Source: Flavobacterium sp. 83
Lineage (GTDB): Bacteria > Bacteroidota > Bacteroidia > Flavobacteriales > Flavobacteriaceae
NCBI RefSeq assembly: GCF_000744835.1
Contig: NZ_JQMS01000001.1
Location: 2,852,001-2,916,000, forward strand
Direction of reading: 5' to 3'
Length of the DNA: 64,000 nt
Position 1 is the first letter of the stretch, and the number at the start of each line of letters is the position of its first letter. A program made the translations under genes and the position numbers. Shown here one piece after another: positions 1,042-17,212 of the stretch. The notes below the pieces were generated by a model. The model worked only from the letters and a program-made list of their open reading frames with translations. It had not been told where the DNA came from and did no database searches.

Positions 1042-4000
1042 TTATTTTACTCCTTTTTCATATTCTTCAATATGATCAAATTCAGGGTAATGTTTTCTGG
1101 CTTTAGACCACATTAAATACATGGCAGGAATAACGAATAAGGTTAAAACTAAAGAGAAAATAGTTCCACCTACAATAACAACTCCCATCCCAATTCTGCT
1201 GGTTGAAGCAGCACCAAGTGACATTGCAATAGGCAATGCTCCTAATGAAATAGCCAAACTGGTCATTAAAATTGGACGTAATCTCGCTTCTGATGCTTCT
1301 AAAATAGCATCAATTTTTGATTTTCCCTGTTCTCGCAGCTGATTCGCAAATTCTACTATCAGAATTCCATTTTTGGTTACCAAACCAATTAACATTACAG
1401 TTCCAATTTGGCTGAAAATATTCCAGGTTTGACCAAAAAGCCATAACGAAAATAATGCCCCGGCAACTGCCATTGGTACAGTTAAAATGATAATGAAAGG
1501 ATCAATAAAACTTTCAAATTGTGCTGCTAGAATCAAAAATATAAGTAATAATGCTAAACCAAAAGCAAAAGAAGTATTTGAGCTACTTTCTACAAAATCT
1601 CTAGATTCTCCACCTAAATCGGTTGTGAAAGTATCGTCTAAAACTTTGGCTTTTATCTCATTCATCGCATCAATTCCATCGCTGATACTTTTGCCAGGAG
1701 CAAGACCTGCCGAAATAGTTGCAGACATATAGCGGTTATTATGATACAATTGCGGAGGATTACTTTTTTCTTCAATACTAACCACATTATCCATTTGTAT
1801 TAATTCCCCTTTATTATTTTTTACATACATCGAGGTTAAATCCAATGGTTTTGAACGGTCTTCTTGATTAAACTGCCCAATTACCTGATATTGCTTTCCA
1901 TTTCTCATAAAGTAACCAAAACGTTGGCCACTTAAAGAAAGTTGCAAGGTTTGCGCGATATCAATTACGGATATTCCTAAACTCTCCGCTTTTTCTCTAT
2001 TTATGCTTACGTTAACTTCAGGTTTGTTAAATTTTAAATTCACATCACTTACTGCAAAAGTTGGATTTTTACCTACTTCATCCATAAACAATGGAATTTT
2101 TTCTCTTAATTTCTCAAAGTTTGGAGCTTGAATAATATATTGAATCGGTAAACCTCCACGTCTGTTTACAGCAATCGTAGGTTGTTCAATTACTGAGGTT
2201 TTTGCATCAGGATATTGTTTGGACCATTTAGTCAATTTTTGTGCAATCTCTTTTTGGGAATCCTTTCTTTCGTTTGGTTCTACCAAAGAAACCCGAATAA
2301 ATCCACTATTCACAGATGAAGATCCAAATCCAGGTGAAGTAATCACTAAACTCACTTTTTTTCCAGGAATGGAATCATCTACTAATTTTGACATTTCCTG
2401 CATGAAACGATCGGTATATTCATAGGTAGATCCTTCAGGAGTTGACATTCGCATTACAAATCCACTACGGTCATCATATGGGGCAGTTTCTTTTTGCAAA
2501 ATATTGAAAAACAAATAAATCAGTCCAAAACAAGCAATCAAAATGGGAAAACTCAACCACTTCCTTTTCATGAAACGCTTCAATGAATTAGCGTAACTAC
2601 TGTTTAATTTTTCAAAATATGGTTCTGTACGAATATAGAATTTTGATTTTTTTTGTTCGCCACCTTTCATCAAATAGGCATTCAACATAGGGGTTAAGGT
2701 CAATGATACAAATGCTGAAATTAGTACTGCAGCACCAATAACCACACCGAATTCCCTAAACAACCGCCCAACAAATCCTTCGAGGAAAATTACAGGTAAA
2801 AATACAGCGGCTAAGGTTATCGATATTGAAATTACTGCAAAAAATATTTCATTAGATCCTTTTATAGCTGCTTCAATAGGTGTCATGCCTTCTTCTACTT
2901 TCTTGAAAATATTTTCGGTTACCACAATTCCATCATCGACCACAAGACCAGTAGCAAGAACAATCGCCAGTAAAGTCAATACATTTATCGAAAACCCAAA
3001 AAGCCACATAATAAAGAATGTTGCAATCAACGAAACGGGAATATCAATTAAAGGTCTGAAAGCAATAGCCCAATCTCTAAAGAATAAATAGATAATTAAA
3101 ATTACCAAAATGATAGAAATCCCTAAAGTTTCGGCTACTTCAATAACTGATTTTTTTACAAATATGGTATTGTCGATGGCGATATTTAACTTAATATCTT
3201 TAGGTAAGTCTTTTTTTAATTTTTCGAATTCTTTATAAAAAGCGGCAGAGATATCTAAATAATTAGCTCCGGGAAGTGGCACAATAGCCACACCAACTAA
3301 AGGCGTGCCTGATTGTGTCATTTGAGTTTCGGTATTTTCAGGACCTAGACTTGCTGTTCCTATGTCGCTTAAGCGAATTACTTTTTCACCAACTGAACGT
3401 ATAATGATGTTGTTGAATTCTTCAGGTTTGGATAGATTTCCAACTGTTTTAACGGTAAGTTCCGTGTTTTTTCCTGTCAATTTTCCTGAAGGGAGTTCCA
3501 CATTTTGTTTATTCAACGCATCTCGAACATCCGAAATCGTACAGCCATAAGACGCTAATTTCACTGGGTCAATCCACAAGCGCATTGCGTATCTTTTTTG
3601 TCCCCAAATTTGAACACCACTTACTCCTGGAATCGTTTCTAATCGTTGCGAAATTACATTTTCGGCATAATCGCTAAGTTCCAATGCATTTCTGGTATCA
3701 CTTTGTACCGTCATCGAAATAATGGCCTCACCATTGGCATCTGCCTTAGAAACAACTGGGGGAGCGTCAATATCTTGTGGTAAGTTTCTTACTGCTTGTG
3801 AAACTTTATCACGTACATCATTGGCCGCCTCTTCAAGATTTTTATCTAAATTAAATTCGATTGTAATATTACTGCTTCCCTGAGCACTTGAAGAAGTTAC
3901 GTTTCTGATTCCATCAATGGAGTTAATGGCTTTTTCAAGAGGTTCAGTAATTTGGGATTCAATAATATCTGAATTGGCTCCGGCATAGTTTGTCCGAATC

Positions 4001-13734: not shown

Positions 13735-16071
13735 ATGCATAAATATATCGATCAACTTAACGAAGCGCAACGCGAACCCGTTTTACAAAAAGACGGTCCT
13801 ATGATCATTATTGCAGGAGCTGGTTCCGGTAAAACGCGGGTTTTGACTATCAGAATTGCTTATTTGATGCATCAGGGAATAGACGCATTTAGCATTCTTT
13901 CGCTGACTTTTACCAACAAAGCAGCACGAGAAATGAAAAAACGTATCTCTGATATTGTAGGTGCTGGCGAAGCTAAAAACCTTTGGATGGGAACTTTTCA
14001 CTCGGTTTTTGCTCGAATTCTTCGTTCTGAGGCGGAACATTTGGGCTATCCTTCGAATTTTACCATTTACGATTCTCAAGATTCACTTCGGGCCATTTCT
14101 GGAATTATCAAAGAAATGCAATTGGATAGAGATGTGTACAAACCAAAACAGGTTTTAAGCAGGATTTCTAATTTCAAAAATAGTTTGATTACGGTAAAAG
14201 CCTATTTCAATGATCCTGATTTACAAGAAGCCGATGCGATGTCTAAAAAGCCTCGAATGGGCGAAATTTATCAAAATTATGTAGACCGGTGTTTCAAAGC
14301 GGGAGCGATGGATTTTGATGATTTATTATTAAAAACCAATGAGTTGCTGACTCGTTTCCCGGAAGTTTTAGCGAAATATCAAAACCGTTTCCGTTACATA
14401 TTAGTCGATGAGTACCAAGATACGAATCACTCACAATATTTAATTGTTAGAGCGTTATCAGATAAATTTCAGAATATTTGCGTGGTAGGTGATGATGCAC
14501 AAAGTATTTATGCGTTTCGAGGTGCCAATATCAACAACATCCTGAATTTCCAAAAAGATTATGAAGGGGTGAAAACCTTTCGATTGGAACAGAATTACCG
14601 TTCGACAAAAAACATTGTGGAAGCGGCGAATACTATCATCGATAAAAATAAAGTTAAACTTGATAAAATAGTTTGGACAGCCAATGATTTTGGTCCAAAA
14701 ATAAAAGTACACCGCAGTTTAACGGATAACGAGGAAGGTCGTTTCGTGGCAAGTACCATTTGGGAGCAAAAAATGCAAAATCAGTTGCCAAACGGCGCAT
14801 TTGCTATTTTGTATCGTACTAATGCACAATCTCGTGCGATGGAAGATGCTTTGAGAAAGAGAGACATTCCATACCGAATATATGGTGGGCTTTCTTTTTA
14901 TCAAAGAAAAGAAGTGAAGGATGTGCTGTGTTATTTACGATTGGTAATCAATCCAAAAGATGAGGAAGCTTTGGTTCGCGTAATCAATTATCCGGCTCGT
15001 GGAATTGGGAATACAACAATTGAAAAATTAACAATTGCCGCTAATCATTACAAGCGTTCGATATTTGAAGTGATGCAAAACATTGAACGAATCGACTTAA
15101 AATTAAACTCGGGAACAAAACAGAAACTTCTTGATTTTGTGACTATGATTCAGAGTTTTCAAGCCATAAATGAAAATCAGGATGCTTTTTATCTTGCTGA
15201 TCATGTTGCCAAAAAAACAGGATTGGTACAAGAATTAAAGAAAGATGCGACTCCGGAAGGAATGGCTAAAATCCAAAATATCGAAGAATTATTAAACGGT
15301 ATCAAGGATTTTACTGAAGGACAAAAAGAAGTTGACGGTGCTCGAGGTGCATTAGCTGAGTTTATGGAAGATGTGGCTTTGGCAACAGATTTAGATAAAG
15401 ATACCAGCGATGAAGATCGTGTGGCATTAATGACGATTCACTTGGCTAAAGGATTGGAATTCCCTCACGTTTTTGTGGTAGGAATGGAAGAGGATTTATT
15501 TCCTAGTGCCATGAGTATGAGTACCAGAAGCGAACTGGAAGAAGAAAGACGTTTATTTTATGTAGCTTTGACAAGAGCGGAACATCAAGCGTATTTGACC
15601 TATGCGCAATCGCGTTACCGTTGGGGAAAATTGACTGATAGTGAACCTTCGCGTTTTATTGAGGAAATCGACAGTCAGTATTTAGAATATATGACACCAC
15701 CGGAGAATAATTATCGTTATAAACCAATGATTGACAGTGATATTTTTGGTGATGTGGATAAATCCAAATTGCGTTTGGCAAAACCAATAGGAAGTACACC
15801 ACCAAAACAGGTTACAAATAACGAACCCAAAGCAGATATAAACGTTAGGAAACTGAAACCAATGTCCAATACAAATGCATCTTCAGGAGCTGCTAATTTA
15901 TTTGATAATAAACTGGTTGCCGGAAATATAGTGATGCACGAACGATTTGGAAAAGGGCAAGTTATCAACATGGAAGGCGTTGGCGCTGATAAAAAAGCGG
16001 AAATCAAGTTTGAAGTGGGCGGAATTAAAAAATTATTATTGCGATTTGCAAAACTGGATATTATAGGATAG
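13735..16071 (+). CDS. UvrD/PcrA-type ATP-dependent DNA helicase (SF1A)
   Basis: 3'-5' helicase for excision repair and removal of proteins from DNA. It has 778 residues. Motif order is complete: Q-motif LNEAQREPV, Walker A AGAGSGKTRVL (about residue 28), Ia TFTNKAAREMKKR, motif II VDEYQDTNHSQY, motif III GDDAQSIYAFRGA, motif IV RLEQNYRST, motif V TIHLAKGLEFPHVFVVG and motif VI EERRLFYVALTRA. The C-terminal tail (GNIVMHERFGKGQVINMEG) is the Tudor-like RNA-polymerase-binding domain of PcrA/UvrD. The GIY-YIG element starts a few bases after its stop codon. Confidence 0.96.
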   Translation: MHKYIDQLNEAQREPVLQKDGPMIIIAGAGSGKTRVLTIRIAYLMHQGIDAFSILSLTFTNKAAREMKKRISDIVGAGEAKNLWMGTFHSVFARILRSEAEHLGYPSNFTIYDSQDSLRAISGIIKEMQLDRDVYKPKQVLSRISNFKNSLITVKAYFNDPDLQEADAMSKKPRMGEIYQNYVDRCFKAGAMDFDDLLLKTNELLTRFPEVLAKYQNRFRYILVDEYQDTNHSQYLIVRALSDKFQNICVVGDDAQSIYAFRGANINNILNFQKDYEGVKTFRLEQNYRSTKNIVEAANTIIDKNKVKLDKIVWTANDFGPKIKVHRSLTDNEEGRFVASTIWEQKMQNQLPNGAFAILYRTNAQSRAMEDALRKRDIPYRIYGGLSFYQRKEVKDVLCYLRLVINPKDEEALVRVINYPARGIGNTTIEKLTIAANHYKRSIFEVMQNIERIDLKLNSGTKQKLLDFVTMIQSFQAINENQDAFYLADHVAKKTGLVQELKKDATPEGMAKIQNIEELLNGIKDFTEGQKEVDGARGALAEFMEDVALATDLDKDTSDEDRVALMTIHLAKGLEFPHVFVVGMEEDLFPSAMSMSTRSELEEERRLFYVALTRAEHQAYLTYAQSRYRWGKLTDSEPSRFIEEIDSQYLEYMTPPENNYRYKPMIDSDIFGDVDKSKLRLAKPIGSTPPKQVTNNEPKADINVRKLKPMSNTNASSGAANLFDNKLVAGNIVMHERFGKGQVINMEGVGADKKAEIKFEVGGIKKLLLRFAKLDIIG

Positions 16072-16080
16072 TATTCAAGG

Positions 16081-16143
16081 TTTTTTCACGTCTGTTCGAG
16101 TGTTTTTTGTGGAGAGAAACGGAACAAAAAATGTATCGAGAAC
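16081..16143 (+). repeat. Left inverted repeat of the GIY-YIG element (copy A)
   Basis: Imperfect palindromic repeat starting about 10 bp after the helicase stop. Order on the plus strand: TTCGAGTG (16095-16102), an 8-bp stem TTTTTTGT/ACAAAAAA (16103-16110 and 16124-16131) around a purine-rich loop, then TGTATCGAGAA (16132-16142). The same order of blocks occurs in reverse orientation at 16507-16576, so the two copies face each other across the GIY-YIG gene. Confidence 0.7.
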
Positions 16144-16178
16144 TATTTTAACAAAAATTATTATTGTGAAGAAATAAT

Positions 16179-16469
16179 ATGAAACAGTCTTACGTATATA
16201 TTTTAAAATGTTCTGACAATTCTTATTATACTGGAGTTACAAGTAATTTAACCCAAAGACTTTTTCAGCACGAAACAGGTTTCTATCCGGATTGTTATGC
16301 CACAAACAAAAGACCTATTGAACTGGTTTATTATTGTAAATTTACAGATATTAATTTTGCAATAGATATTGAGAAAAAAATTAAAAAATGGTCAAGAGTA
16401 AAAAAAGAAGCATTGATTAATGAAGAGTATGACAAACTTCCTAATTTAGCAAAGAAAAGTTTTATATAA
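16179..16469 (+). CDS. Small GIY-YIG nuclease domain protein
   Basis: Single-domain GIY-YIG protein of 96 residues. The two halves of the signature appear as YVYILKC and YYTGVTS, followed by the catalytic arginine region NLTQRLFQHETG and the metal-binding glutamate in AIDIEKKIKKWSR. Stand-alone proteins of this size are common in Bacteroidota, and their biological substrate is not established. Inverted structured repeats flank the gene on both sides, suggesting a nuclease-linked mobile unit. The gene has an AAGAA-rich leader but no clear promoter. Confidence 0.9.
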   Translation: MKQSYVYILKCSDNSYYTGVTSNLTQRLFQHETGFYPDCYATNKRPIELVYYCKFTDINFAIDIEKKIKKWSRVKKEALINEEYDKLPNLAKKSFI

Positions 16470-16506
16470 CTATCGAAATTCCGAGGACTAATAAACTTTT
16501 AAATGC

Positions 16507-16576
16507 TTCTCGATACAATTTTTAATAGTAAAGCTGTCGCATTACTATTAAAAATCACTCGAAGTGACGGAAAAAT
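16507..16576 (-). repeat. Right inverted repeat of the GIY-YIG element (copy B)
   Basis: Reverse-oriented partner of the repeat at 16081-16143. Read on the plus strand it begins TTCTCGATACA (16507-16517), then has a 14-bp perfect stem (ATTTTTAATAGTAA at 16518-16531, complement at 16542-16555) around a 10-nt loop, then CACTCGAAGTGACGG (16556-16570). The flanks match copy A almost base for base, while the stem sequence differs. The 3' end is 16-22 bp from the next gene. Confidence 0.72.
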
Positions 16577-16591
16577 AATAAAATAAAAAAA

Positions 16592-17212
16592 ATGGCTCAA
16601 TTTATAAAAATATACGAAGATAAACCCAATGAAGCAGCAATTGCCAAAGTGGTTAAGGTTTTAAAAGAAGGTGGGTTGGTGATTTATCCAACGGATACCG
16701 TTTATGGTCTGGGTTGTGATATTACTAATACCAAGGCTTTGGAACGCATTGCCAAGATTAAAGGAATTAAGCTGGAAAAAGCTAATTTTTCCTTCATTTG
16801 CCATGATTTGAGCAATATATCCGATTATGTGAAGCAAATTGACACAGCTACTTTTAAATTGCTAAAAAGAGCTTTACCCGGTCCATATACTTTCATTTTA
16901 CCTGGAAACAATAACTTGCCTAAAGAATTTAAAAAGAAAACGACTGTCGGAATTCGGGTTCCCGATAACTCAATAGCACTCGAAATTGTTCGTCAATTAG
17001 GAAATCCTATTGTTTCAACTTCAATTCACGATGAGGATGATGTGATAGAATATACCACAGATCCAGAGCTTATTTTTGAGAAATGGCAAAACCTCGTAGA
17101 TGTTGTTATTGATGGTGGCTATGGTGATAATATAGGTTCTACTATTATTGATTTGTCTGGTGATGAGCCTATTGTAGTAAGAGAAGGAAAAGGAAGTTTG
17201 GATATTTTGTAG
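16592..17212 (+). CDS. YrdC/Sua5/YciO family protein (L-threonylcarbamoyladenylate synthase-like)
   Basis: The family makes threonylcarbamoyl-AMP from threonine, bicarbonate and ATP for the tRNA t6A modification. It has 206 residues, the length of the single-domain YrdC/YciO type without a C-terminal Sua5 domain. Motifs: GGLVIYPTDTVYGLGCD (about residues 28-44), LKRALPGPYTFILPG and TTVGIRVPDN, then NPIVSTSIH. The phrase KANFSFICHDL is closer to the YciO branch, so the precise enzymatic role is uncertain. TsaE, another t6A factor, is encoded at 28854-29261. Confidence 0.88.
   Translation: MAQFIKIYEDKPNEAAIAKVVKVLKEGGLVIYPTDTVYGLGCDITNTKALERIAKIKGIKLEKANFSFICHDLSNISDYVKQIDTATFKLLKRALPGPYTFILPGNNNLPKEFKKKTTVGIRVPDNSIALEIVRQLGNPIVSTSIHDEDDVIEYTTDPELIFEKWQNLVDVVIDGGYGDNIGSTIIDLSGDEPIVVREGKGSLDIL

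Follow-up and report, generated by a model that had tools for sequence, protein, structure and literature searches.

A GIY-YIG nuclease gene set between inverted CGTC-type REPs in Flavobacterium sp. 83 and its relatives

Why should a small nuclease gene lie between two inverted copies of a structured repeat, and do gene and repeats form one system? The question is raised by a locus of Flavobacterium sp. 83 within a window of 64,000 nucleotides (the whole stretch of DNA analysed), in which an ORF encoding a single-domain protein of 96 residues (16179-16469, plus strand) is located between a uvrD-type helicase gene (13735-16071) and a yrdC-type gene (16592-17212). The ORF was assigned through its match to the GIY-YIG domain PF01541, which scores 60.3 bits (cut-off 22.6) and covers residues 4-75, and through residue conservation, with Y7, Y17, R27, H31, E65 and K76 conserved in 173-179 of 180 aligned homologues. 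Its catalytic residues being kept, the enzyme is probably active. PF01541 is the sole domain of the protein, which contains no Y1/HUH domain of the REP/RAYT kind. At E values up to 0.001 a single protein homologue was detected in its own genome, and the three other PF01541 loci of this genome (L011-L013) carry no REP motif.

The flanks of the ORF match the pattern TTCGAGTG-hairpin-TGTATCGAGAA exactly on both sides, in inverted orientation and aimed at the gene. The initial annotation had described precisely this bracketing of a GIY-YIG gene, and both blocks of the block-hairpin-block layout that it proposed are present; each repeat, however, is longer than that layout and carries an outer CGTC tag. 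The left CGTC-REP (16089-16143, plus strand), identified by reading the sequence, by a pattern search with its control and by family covariation, consists of the tag (16089-16092), a GTTCGAG block, an inner hairpin and a TATCGAGAAC block. Its inverted counterpart on the right (16506-16569, minus strand), identified by sequence reading and folding, begins with the tag at 16569-16566 and features a long inner hairpin. Compared with shuffled sequences the right REP folds far better (z -5.31) and the left one weakly so (z -1.55). Both copies are tagged CGTC and not GTAG, as REP/RAYT repeats would be, and they combine the tag, the stem-loop and the head-to-head dimers repeated in the genome that characterise the CGTC-REP superfamily.

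The anatomy of the repeat was analysed by covariation in 392 distinct type-A REPs, a mutually related and unweighted set. The base preceding the TTCGAG block forms a standard pair with the base following CGAGAA in 362 of the 392 REPs, where 188 would be expected for independent positions, and the next pair is standard in 384 of them (326 expected). The pair adjoining CGAG is nearly invariant and the next base outwards does not covary; where REPs of the superfamily have a short unpaired tail, mostly fitting CCA, the base after the lower stem is C or T in most of the 392 REPs and shows no covariation. Because of the covariation, the two blocks are probably not independent boxes next to a hairpin; they would pair with each other to form a single lower stem (STTC/GAAS, containing a tandem G.A mismatch). 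The order of this stem is S-T-T-C, the tandem G.A/A.G mismatch and then G-C, under a variable inner hairpin. ViennaRNA favours a shifted TCGA/TCGA register in which the covarying bases are not opposed, an arrangement unsupported by the covariation. The left window REP is of G-type (covarying pair G16094:C16143) and the right one of C-type (C16564:G16506, in minus-strand reading). With a search pattern that required either tag, 225 of the 392 family REPs were found to carry CGTC and 167 TGTC. The loci examined contain 67 distinct head-to-head REP dimers with a median spacer of 21 bp, and the two REPs are of opposite S type in 55 of these dimers and in 38 of the 45 scored pairs around a gene. 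The GIY-YIG gene occupies the spacer between the two REPs of a head-to-head CGTC dimer, and gene-less dimers of the same type are found in genomes holding the gene. A compensated variant of the REP, with A..T for T..A, is present in all four Aquimarina-named genomes (3 to 7 copies each) and in none of eight other genomes; the same four genomes also hold the usual REP type (1 to 14 copies).

The bracketing recurs widely among 80 named GIY-YIG loci, the best of 416 confirmed, nearly all of them from Flavobacteriaceae and several from one genome. An REP head pointing inwards within 400 bp was observed on both sides of the gene at 52 of the 80 loci, on one side at 26 and on neither at 2; the corresponding numbers for 435 control ORFs taken from these loci are 6, 32 and 397. 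REP motifs number 330 in 62,816 bp of flanking DNA, whereas the remaining 597,579 bp of the loci contain 96, a density about 33-fold higher in the flanks. The early suggestion of a REP/RAYT-like arrangement with GIY-YIG in place of Y1 is supported well beyond the locus that inspired it. We also compared the left and right REPs of individual loci (77 loci, three of the 80 with short flanks being left out). Only one of the 77 exceeds the 99th percentile of 610 mismatched pairs, and the left-right match scores have a median of 17 versus 10 in 336 control ORFs, for which the 99th percentile is 15.8. Since REPs of one locus match no better than REPs across loci, the pair represents a shared recognition type and not a private TIR, and locus-specific terminal repeats were rejected.

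On the level of whole genomes, at least three REPs were found in 21 of 21 family genomes with a close homologue of the nuclease (median 13); the proportion falls to 17 of 77 where all homologues are distant and to 4 of 51 where there is none. The rank test for this comparison of 149 genomes gives p 2.5e-12 and ignores relatedness, and a close homologue was defined as E<1e-35, a cut chosen after seeing the data. Among the 128 genomes without a close homologue, 44 have at least one REP. The genome G168 contains 26 type-A REPs but, at E values of 0.001 or below, nothing that matches GIY-YIG, which could reflect a lost gene, an assembly gap or another mobiliser. In G021, with 16 type-A REPs, the best match is a broken piece (L115, C20:113160-113327) with two stops, in which residues 1-56 are matched. 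G208 contains 46 REP copies, many of them in head-to-head dimers with varied hairpins. GIY-YIG copies lie about 0.4 to 1 kb apart at L170 (G066:C86:45033-46110) and at G111:C15:33.6-36.3 kb, and in G111 REPs occur about every 180 bp around them.

The association of GIY-YIG genes with REPs is strong, and from it we infer a mechanism. Ssn proteins of Neisseria and others, reportedly the subject of a 2025 paper, are said to be site-specific single-strand GIY-YIG nucleases with cognate NTS repeats. With moderate confidence, we interpret the window unit as a REP-associated GIY-YIG nuclease cassette, in which a site-specific and probably single-strand nuclease akin to Neisseria Ssn is encoded together with its cognate REPs. 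A single GIY-YIG domain with catalytic residues and a genome-dispersed cognate repeat, here a statistical association, are common to both systems; the Flavobacterium REP differs in sequence and architecture. Judging by the anatomy of the repeat, the nuclease would recognise the folded single-stranded REP by its CGTC tag and lower stem, and it could cut the REP at replication forks, in the course of repair or when transforming DNA enters the cell. As the least certain steps of this scheme, we conjecture that such cuts might start repair or recombination exchange between REP-bearing sites, and that cassettes might thereby spread as autonomous forms, linked to gene-less dimers as the non-autonomous ones. 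Several results described here and below speak against the interpretation: REPs of one locus match no better than REPs across loci, REPs also occur in genomes without a close homologue, REP type B does not cluster on the nuclease tree, ten of 20 plasmid-collection loci have no REP pair, and more than half of the REPs of this genome lie in IS982-type elements. In this particular genome, IS982-type mini-elements have also carried REP dimers along.

The last point derives from the distribution of the REPs in the 3.79-Mb genome. The strict pattern, as first read at the window locus, has 8 matches (0 for the reversed control) and a relaxed pattern with a TATCGAGAA tail has 16 (control 0). The initial annotation would have been refuted by repeats confined to its locus, and these matches elsewhere in the genome pass that test. 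Of these 16 REPs, nine are located in IS982-type mini-elements, four in a tandem array, two at the GIY-YIG gene and one elsewhere. The tandem array (L001 1430-2400, G000:C1:285.4-286.3 kb) is built from units of ~180-205 bp with an inverted REP pair in each. The REP-bearing mini-elements are mostly about 183 bp long and share their terminal repeats with an IS982-family element of 1000 bp; the five best, at L234, L236, L243, L248 and L258, run from base 1501 over 182-184 bp with a CGTC-REP dimer inside, and four of them are bordered by 5-bp direct repeats. Pairs of IS982 ends exactly 1000 bp apart occur eight times in the genome, and the one copy read (L232 1501-2500, G000:C1:226087-227086) is a 1000-bp IS982-family element (NF033520) with AACCCGTTGGGTG ends and a 5-bp direct repeat. 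The outer AACCCGTTGGGTG repeat was accordingly rejected as a part of the REP system, being the terminus of this element. An IS can thus carry REP dimers along as passengers, and with nine of 16 REPs in IS982-type elements such hitchhiking explains much of the REP dispersal in this genome.

These observations raise an alternative, in which the REPs owe their dispersal to other transposases, of the RAYT or IS982 type. The nuclease would then have no part in the dispersal and would only make use of the REPs or police them, for instance by modulating recombination or transformation. The nine mini-element REPs and the direct repeats argue for it, as does the fact that GIY-YIG enzymes hydrolyse DNA and do not rejoin it, and the work on Ssn in Neisseria reportedly concerns transformation, not mobility. 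However, the mini-elements carry REP dimers of the same type as those at the window GIY unit, yet no IS982 terminal repeats were found within about 600 bp of that unit, and of the 80 named GIY-YIG loci a single one (L041) has IS982-like ends at a distance of up to 600 bp. A role for RAYT as the REP mobiliser is unsupported in this genome, as none of the six Y1-like loci of the genome (L226-L231) contains a CGTC-REP motif and the Y1 genes at L227 and L228 are flanked by other repeats. The alternative also fails to account for how frequently the gene lies within a dimer and for the number of sites at which it does, and we consider it rather unlikely, though a serious contender.

A nuclease cassette with cognate REPs, the reading we prefer, can further be examined through its insertion sites. 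By our own linking rule the 81 loci (window included) represent 57 gene neighbourhoods, a count inflated by the 17 of 80 loci that have <2.5 kb on one side. Seven of the 81, window included, share the uvrD-yrdC neighbourhood, and in Azospirillum the GIY-YIG gene is found between sufB and sufC. We compared the uvrD-yrdC junction across 36 loci, comprising six named loci and, out of 61 genomes of the genus, the 30 with the most similar yrdC (the window among them). Eight junctions contain the unit and measure 520-726 bp, and 20 measure 29-122 bp and have neither gene nor REP motif; longer spacers of 249-565 bp without a GIY-YIG match occur at six junctions, and two lack a uvrD match. At one of the six (L210, about 2119-2522, minus strand) decayed REPs occupy the corresponding position while a GIY-YIG match is absent, so that the unit was probably inherited there and then eroded. 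The many neighbourhoods and the mixed junctions indicate that the unit has been gained and lost at different sites and inherited for some time at uvrD-yrdC, where no boundary or target duplication of the unit is readable, the intergenic DNA being too diverged. The initial proposal of a nuclease-driven mobile unit also passes its second test, since the unit occupies many sites and 20 relatives have a short, unit-less junction in place of one position common to all; the nuclease as driver is put in doubt by the nine of 16 REPs in IS982-type mini-elements, by the unreadable boundaries of the unit and by the hydrolytic, non-joining chemistry of GIY-YIG enzymes. The Flavobacterium-type uvrD-GIY-yrdC block also appears on a contig (L054) that is catalogued under a Klebsiella pneumoniae MAG and is probably misbinned.

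The existence of relatives with a REP-free uvrD-yrdC junction would also suit a homing-type element whose nuclease cuts the empty junction, the REPs being passengers or terminators, and GIY-YIG domains do occur in homing enzymes (PMC1564403). A GIY-YIG homing element combines the domain with an added DNA-binding part and has one conserved target, whereas the protein described here is hardly more than the 96-residue domain, gene-less REPs track the gene, and no single target is common to the loci because they fall into 57 neighbourhoods; we judge such an element very improbable. We give as little credence to the repeats being common transcription terminators, or hairpins for RNA stability, that stand beside a small gene by chance: the hairpins, above all the right copy, are strong enough for RNA elements and RNA roles of REPs have been proposed (PMC3733652), but such a pair brackets no more than 6 of the 435 control ORFs, and terminators need neither the CGTC tag nor the covarying lower stem.

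GIY-YIG genes of other Bacteroidota are flanked by other repeats, among them TGTCA..CTGAGCTTGTCGAAG, CGTCATCCTGAACTTGTTTCAGGATC, GTCATTCCCGCG..CGGGAATC and further types. The patterns and labels of these types were drawn up after inspecting the flanks, and many genes had no recognised pair, with 39 of 181 receiving no REP label. In a permuted-tag control on 173 genes (8 of the 181 were dropped), YGTC pairs with at least 8 matches were found at 94 genes, compared with 18, 5, 2 and 6 for four permuted tags and 8 of 865 for shuffles. A fifth permuted tag, YTCG, gave 67 of 173, a control that is not independent because TTCG lies within the TTCGAGTG motif. REP type is clustered on the nuclease tree calculated with FastTree (178 proteins, 98 columns, 140 labelled rows; 41 of 181 were dropped for a missing label or for length): the nine REP labels require 26 changes versus 50 to 54 in 200 shuffles, and without type A 18 changes versus 30 to 40. 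REP type B on its own shows no clustering on this tree, 207 of 500 shuffles being as low. From 56 records of a plasmid collection we hand-chose 20 homologue loci, ten of which have CGTC/TGTC/CCTC REP pairs: Neisseria gonorrhoeae, Sinorhizobium, Azospirillum, Rhizobium, Sphingobium, Shinella, Planktothrix, Spirosoma and two Methylobacterium. Apart from Neisseria, Planktothrix and Spirosoma these are alphaproteobacteria. The two Methylobacterium loci carry the CCTC variant, and the Spirosoma locus has an REP dimer upstream and a related repeat downstream. No such pair was seen at the other ten, which include yazA and yhbQ; proteins of the UPF0213/yazA/yhbQ group have the same single domain as the window protein (1zg2, E 4.1e-12; 1ywl, E 4.7e-9) but, unlike the window gene, the yazA and yhbQ loci examined lack a flanking REP pair. 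The N. gonorrhoeae homologue, 37% identical over 81 residues, lies between CGTC REPs that resemble dRS3, and it is putatively Ssn itself.

A more far-reaching reading, which we put forward only tentatively, is that the entire CGTC-REP superfamily has its dedicated and so far missing enzymes in the single-domain GIY-YIG nucleases, with each subfamily reading its own folded single-stranded REP and spreading its own gene and gene-less dimers by cut-and-repair exchange, a hydrolytic and transposase-free route. The CGTC-REP class, once deemed to be without an enzyme, may well have one of its own. If true, the subfamily-by-subfamily link to GIY-YIG proteins would give CGTC REPs an enzyme and would allow the repeats flanking a nuclease gene to be used for predicting what that nuclease recognises. 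Further gains could be a source of site-specific single-strand cutters and, in non-pathogenic strains of Flavobacterium, a means of testing how REPs drive recombination and gene transfer.

How much of this had been described before? The initial annotation knew of no description of this exact system. To call it undescribed would be too strong, as GIY-YIG nucleases with cognate repeats are known and Ssn of Neisseria is reportedly in print. CGTC REPs are known as well: the 2013 paper by Di Nocera, De Gregorio and Rocco (PMC3733652) sorts REPs into GTAG and CGTC superfamilies, and describes CGTC REPs with a CGTC or TGTC tag, a stem-loop and head-to-head dimers, in several kinds per phylum and in five phyla, including Neisseria and Rickettsia. 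G. forsetii, a flavobacterium, is listed there as CGTC-positive, and the Neisseria dRS3 is equated with CGTC-1. The repeats reported here are alike in tag, stem-loop and head-to-head dimers, and differ in that two short recognition blocks frame an inner hairpin of very different lengths and in that they bracket GIY-YIG genes, whereas PMC3733652 ties no transposase or other enzyme gene to CGTC REPs. In the openly licensed literature searched we found no link between GIY-YIG genes and CGTC REPs, which is weak evidence of absence. The type-A architecture, the covariation, the mixed dimers, the matching of subfamilies and a candidate answer to the question left open in 2013 may be new.

REP/RAYT systems and REPINs, as presented in PMC3733652, likewise consist of an enzyme gene flanked by a repeat with dispersed gene-less dimers; here the enzyme is GIY-YIG instead of Y1/HUH and the tag CGTC instead of GTAG. 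Flavobacterium sp. 83 has three Y1_Tnp matches over the cut-off, one of them within a frame of 1239 residues. One REP-associated tyrosine transposase (NF047646), encoded at L227 1423-1989 (G000:C1, about 2320.5 kb), shares the genome with the GIY-YIG system but is flanked by a distinct repeat of its own; L228 contains a second Y1 gene. At L226 1-3198 (G000:C1, about 2632.7 kb), a Y1-transposase-like stretch is embedded in frame in a long methylase-like protein, with repeated GFKPLV-like peptides near this stretch; we read the protein as a putative type II restriction-modification protein.
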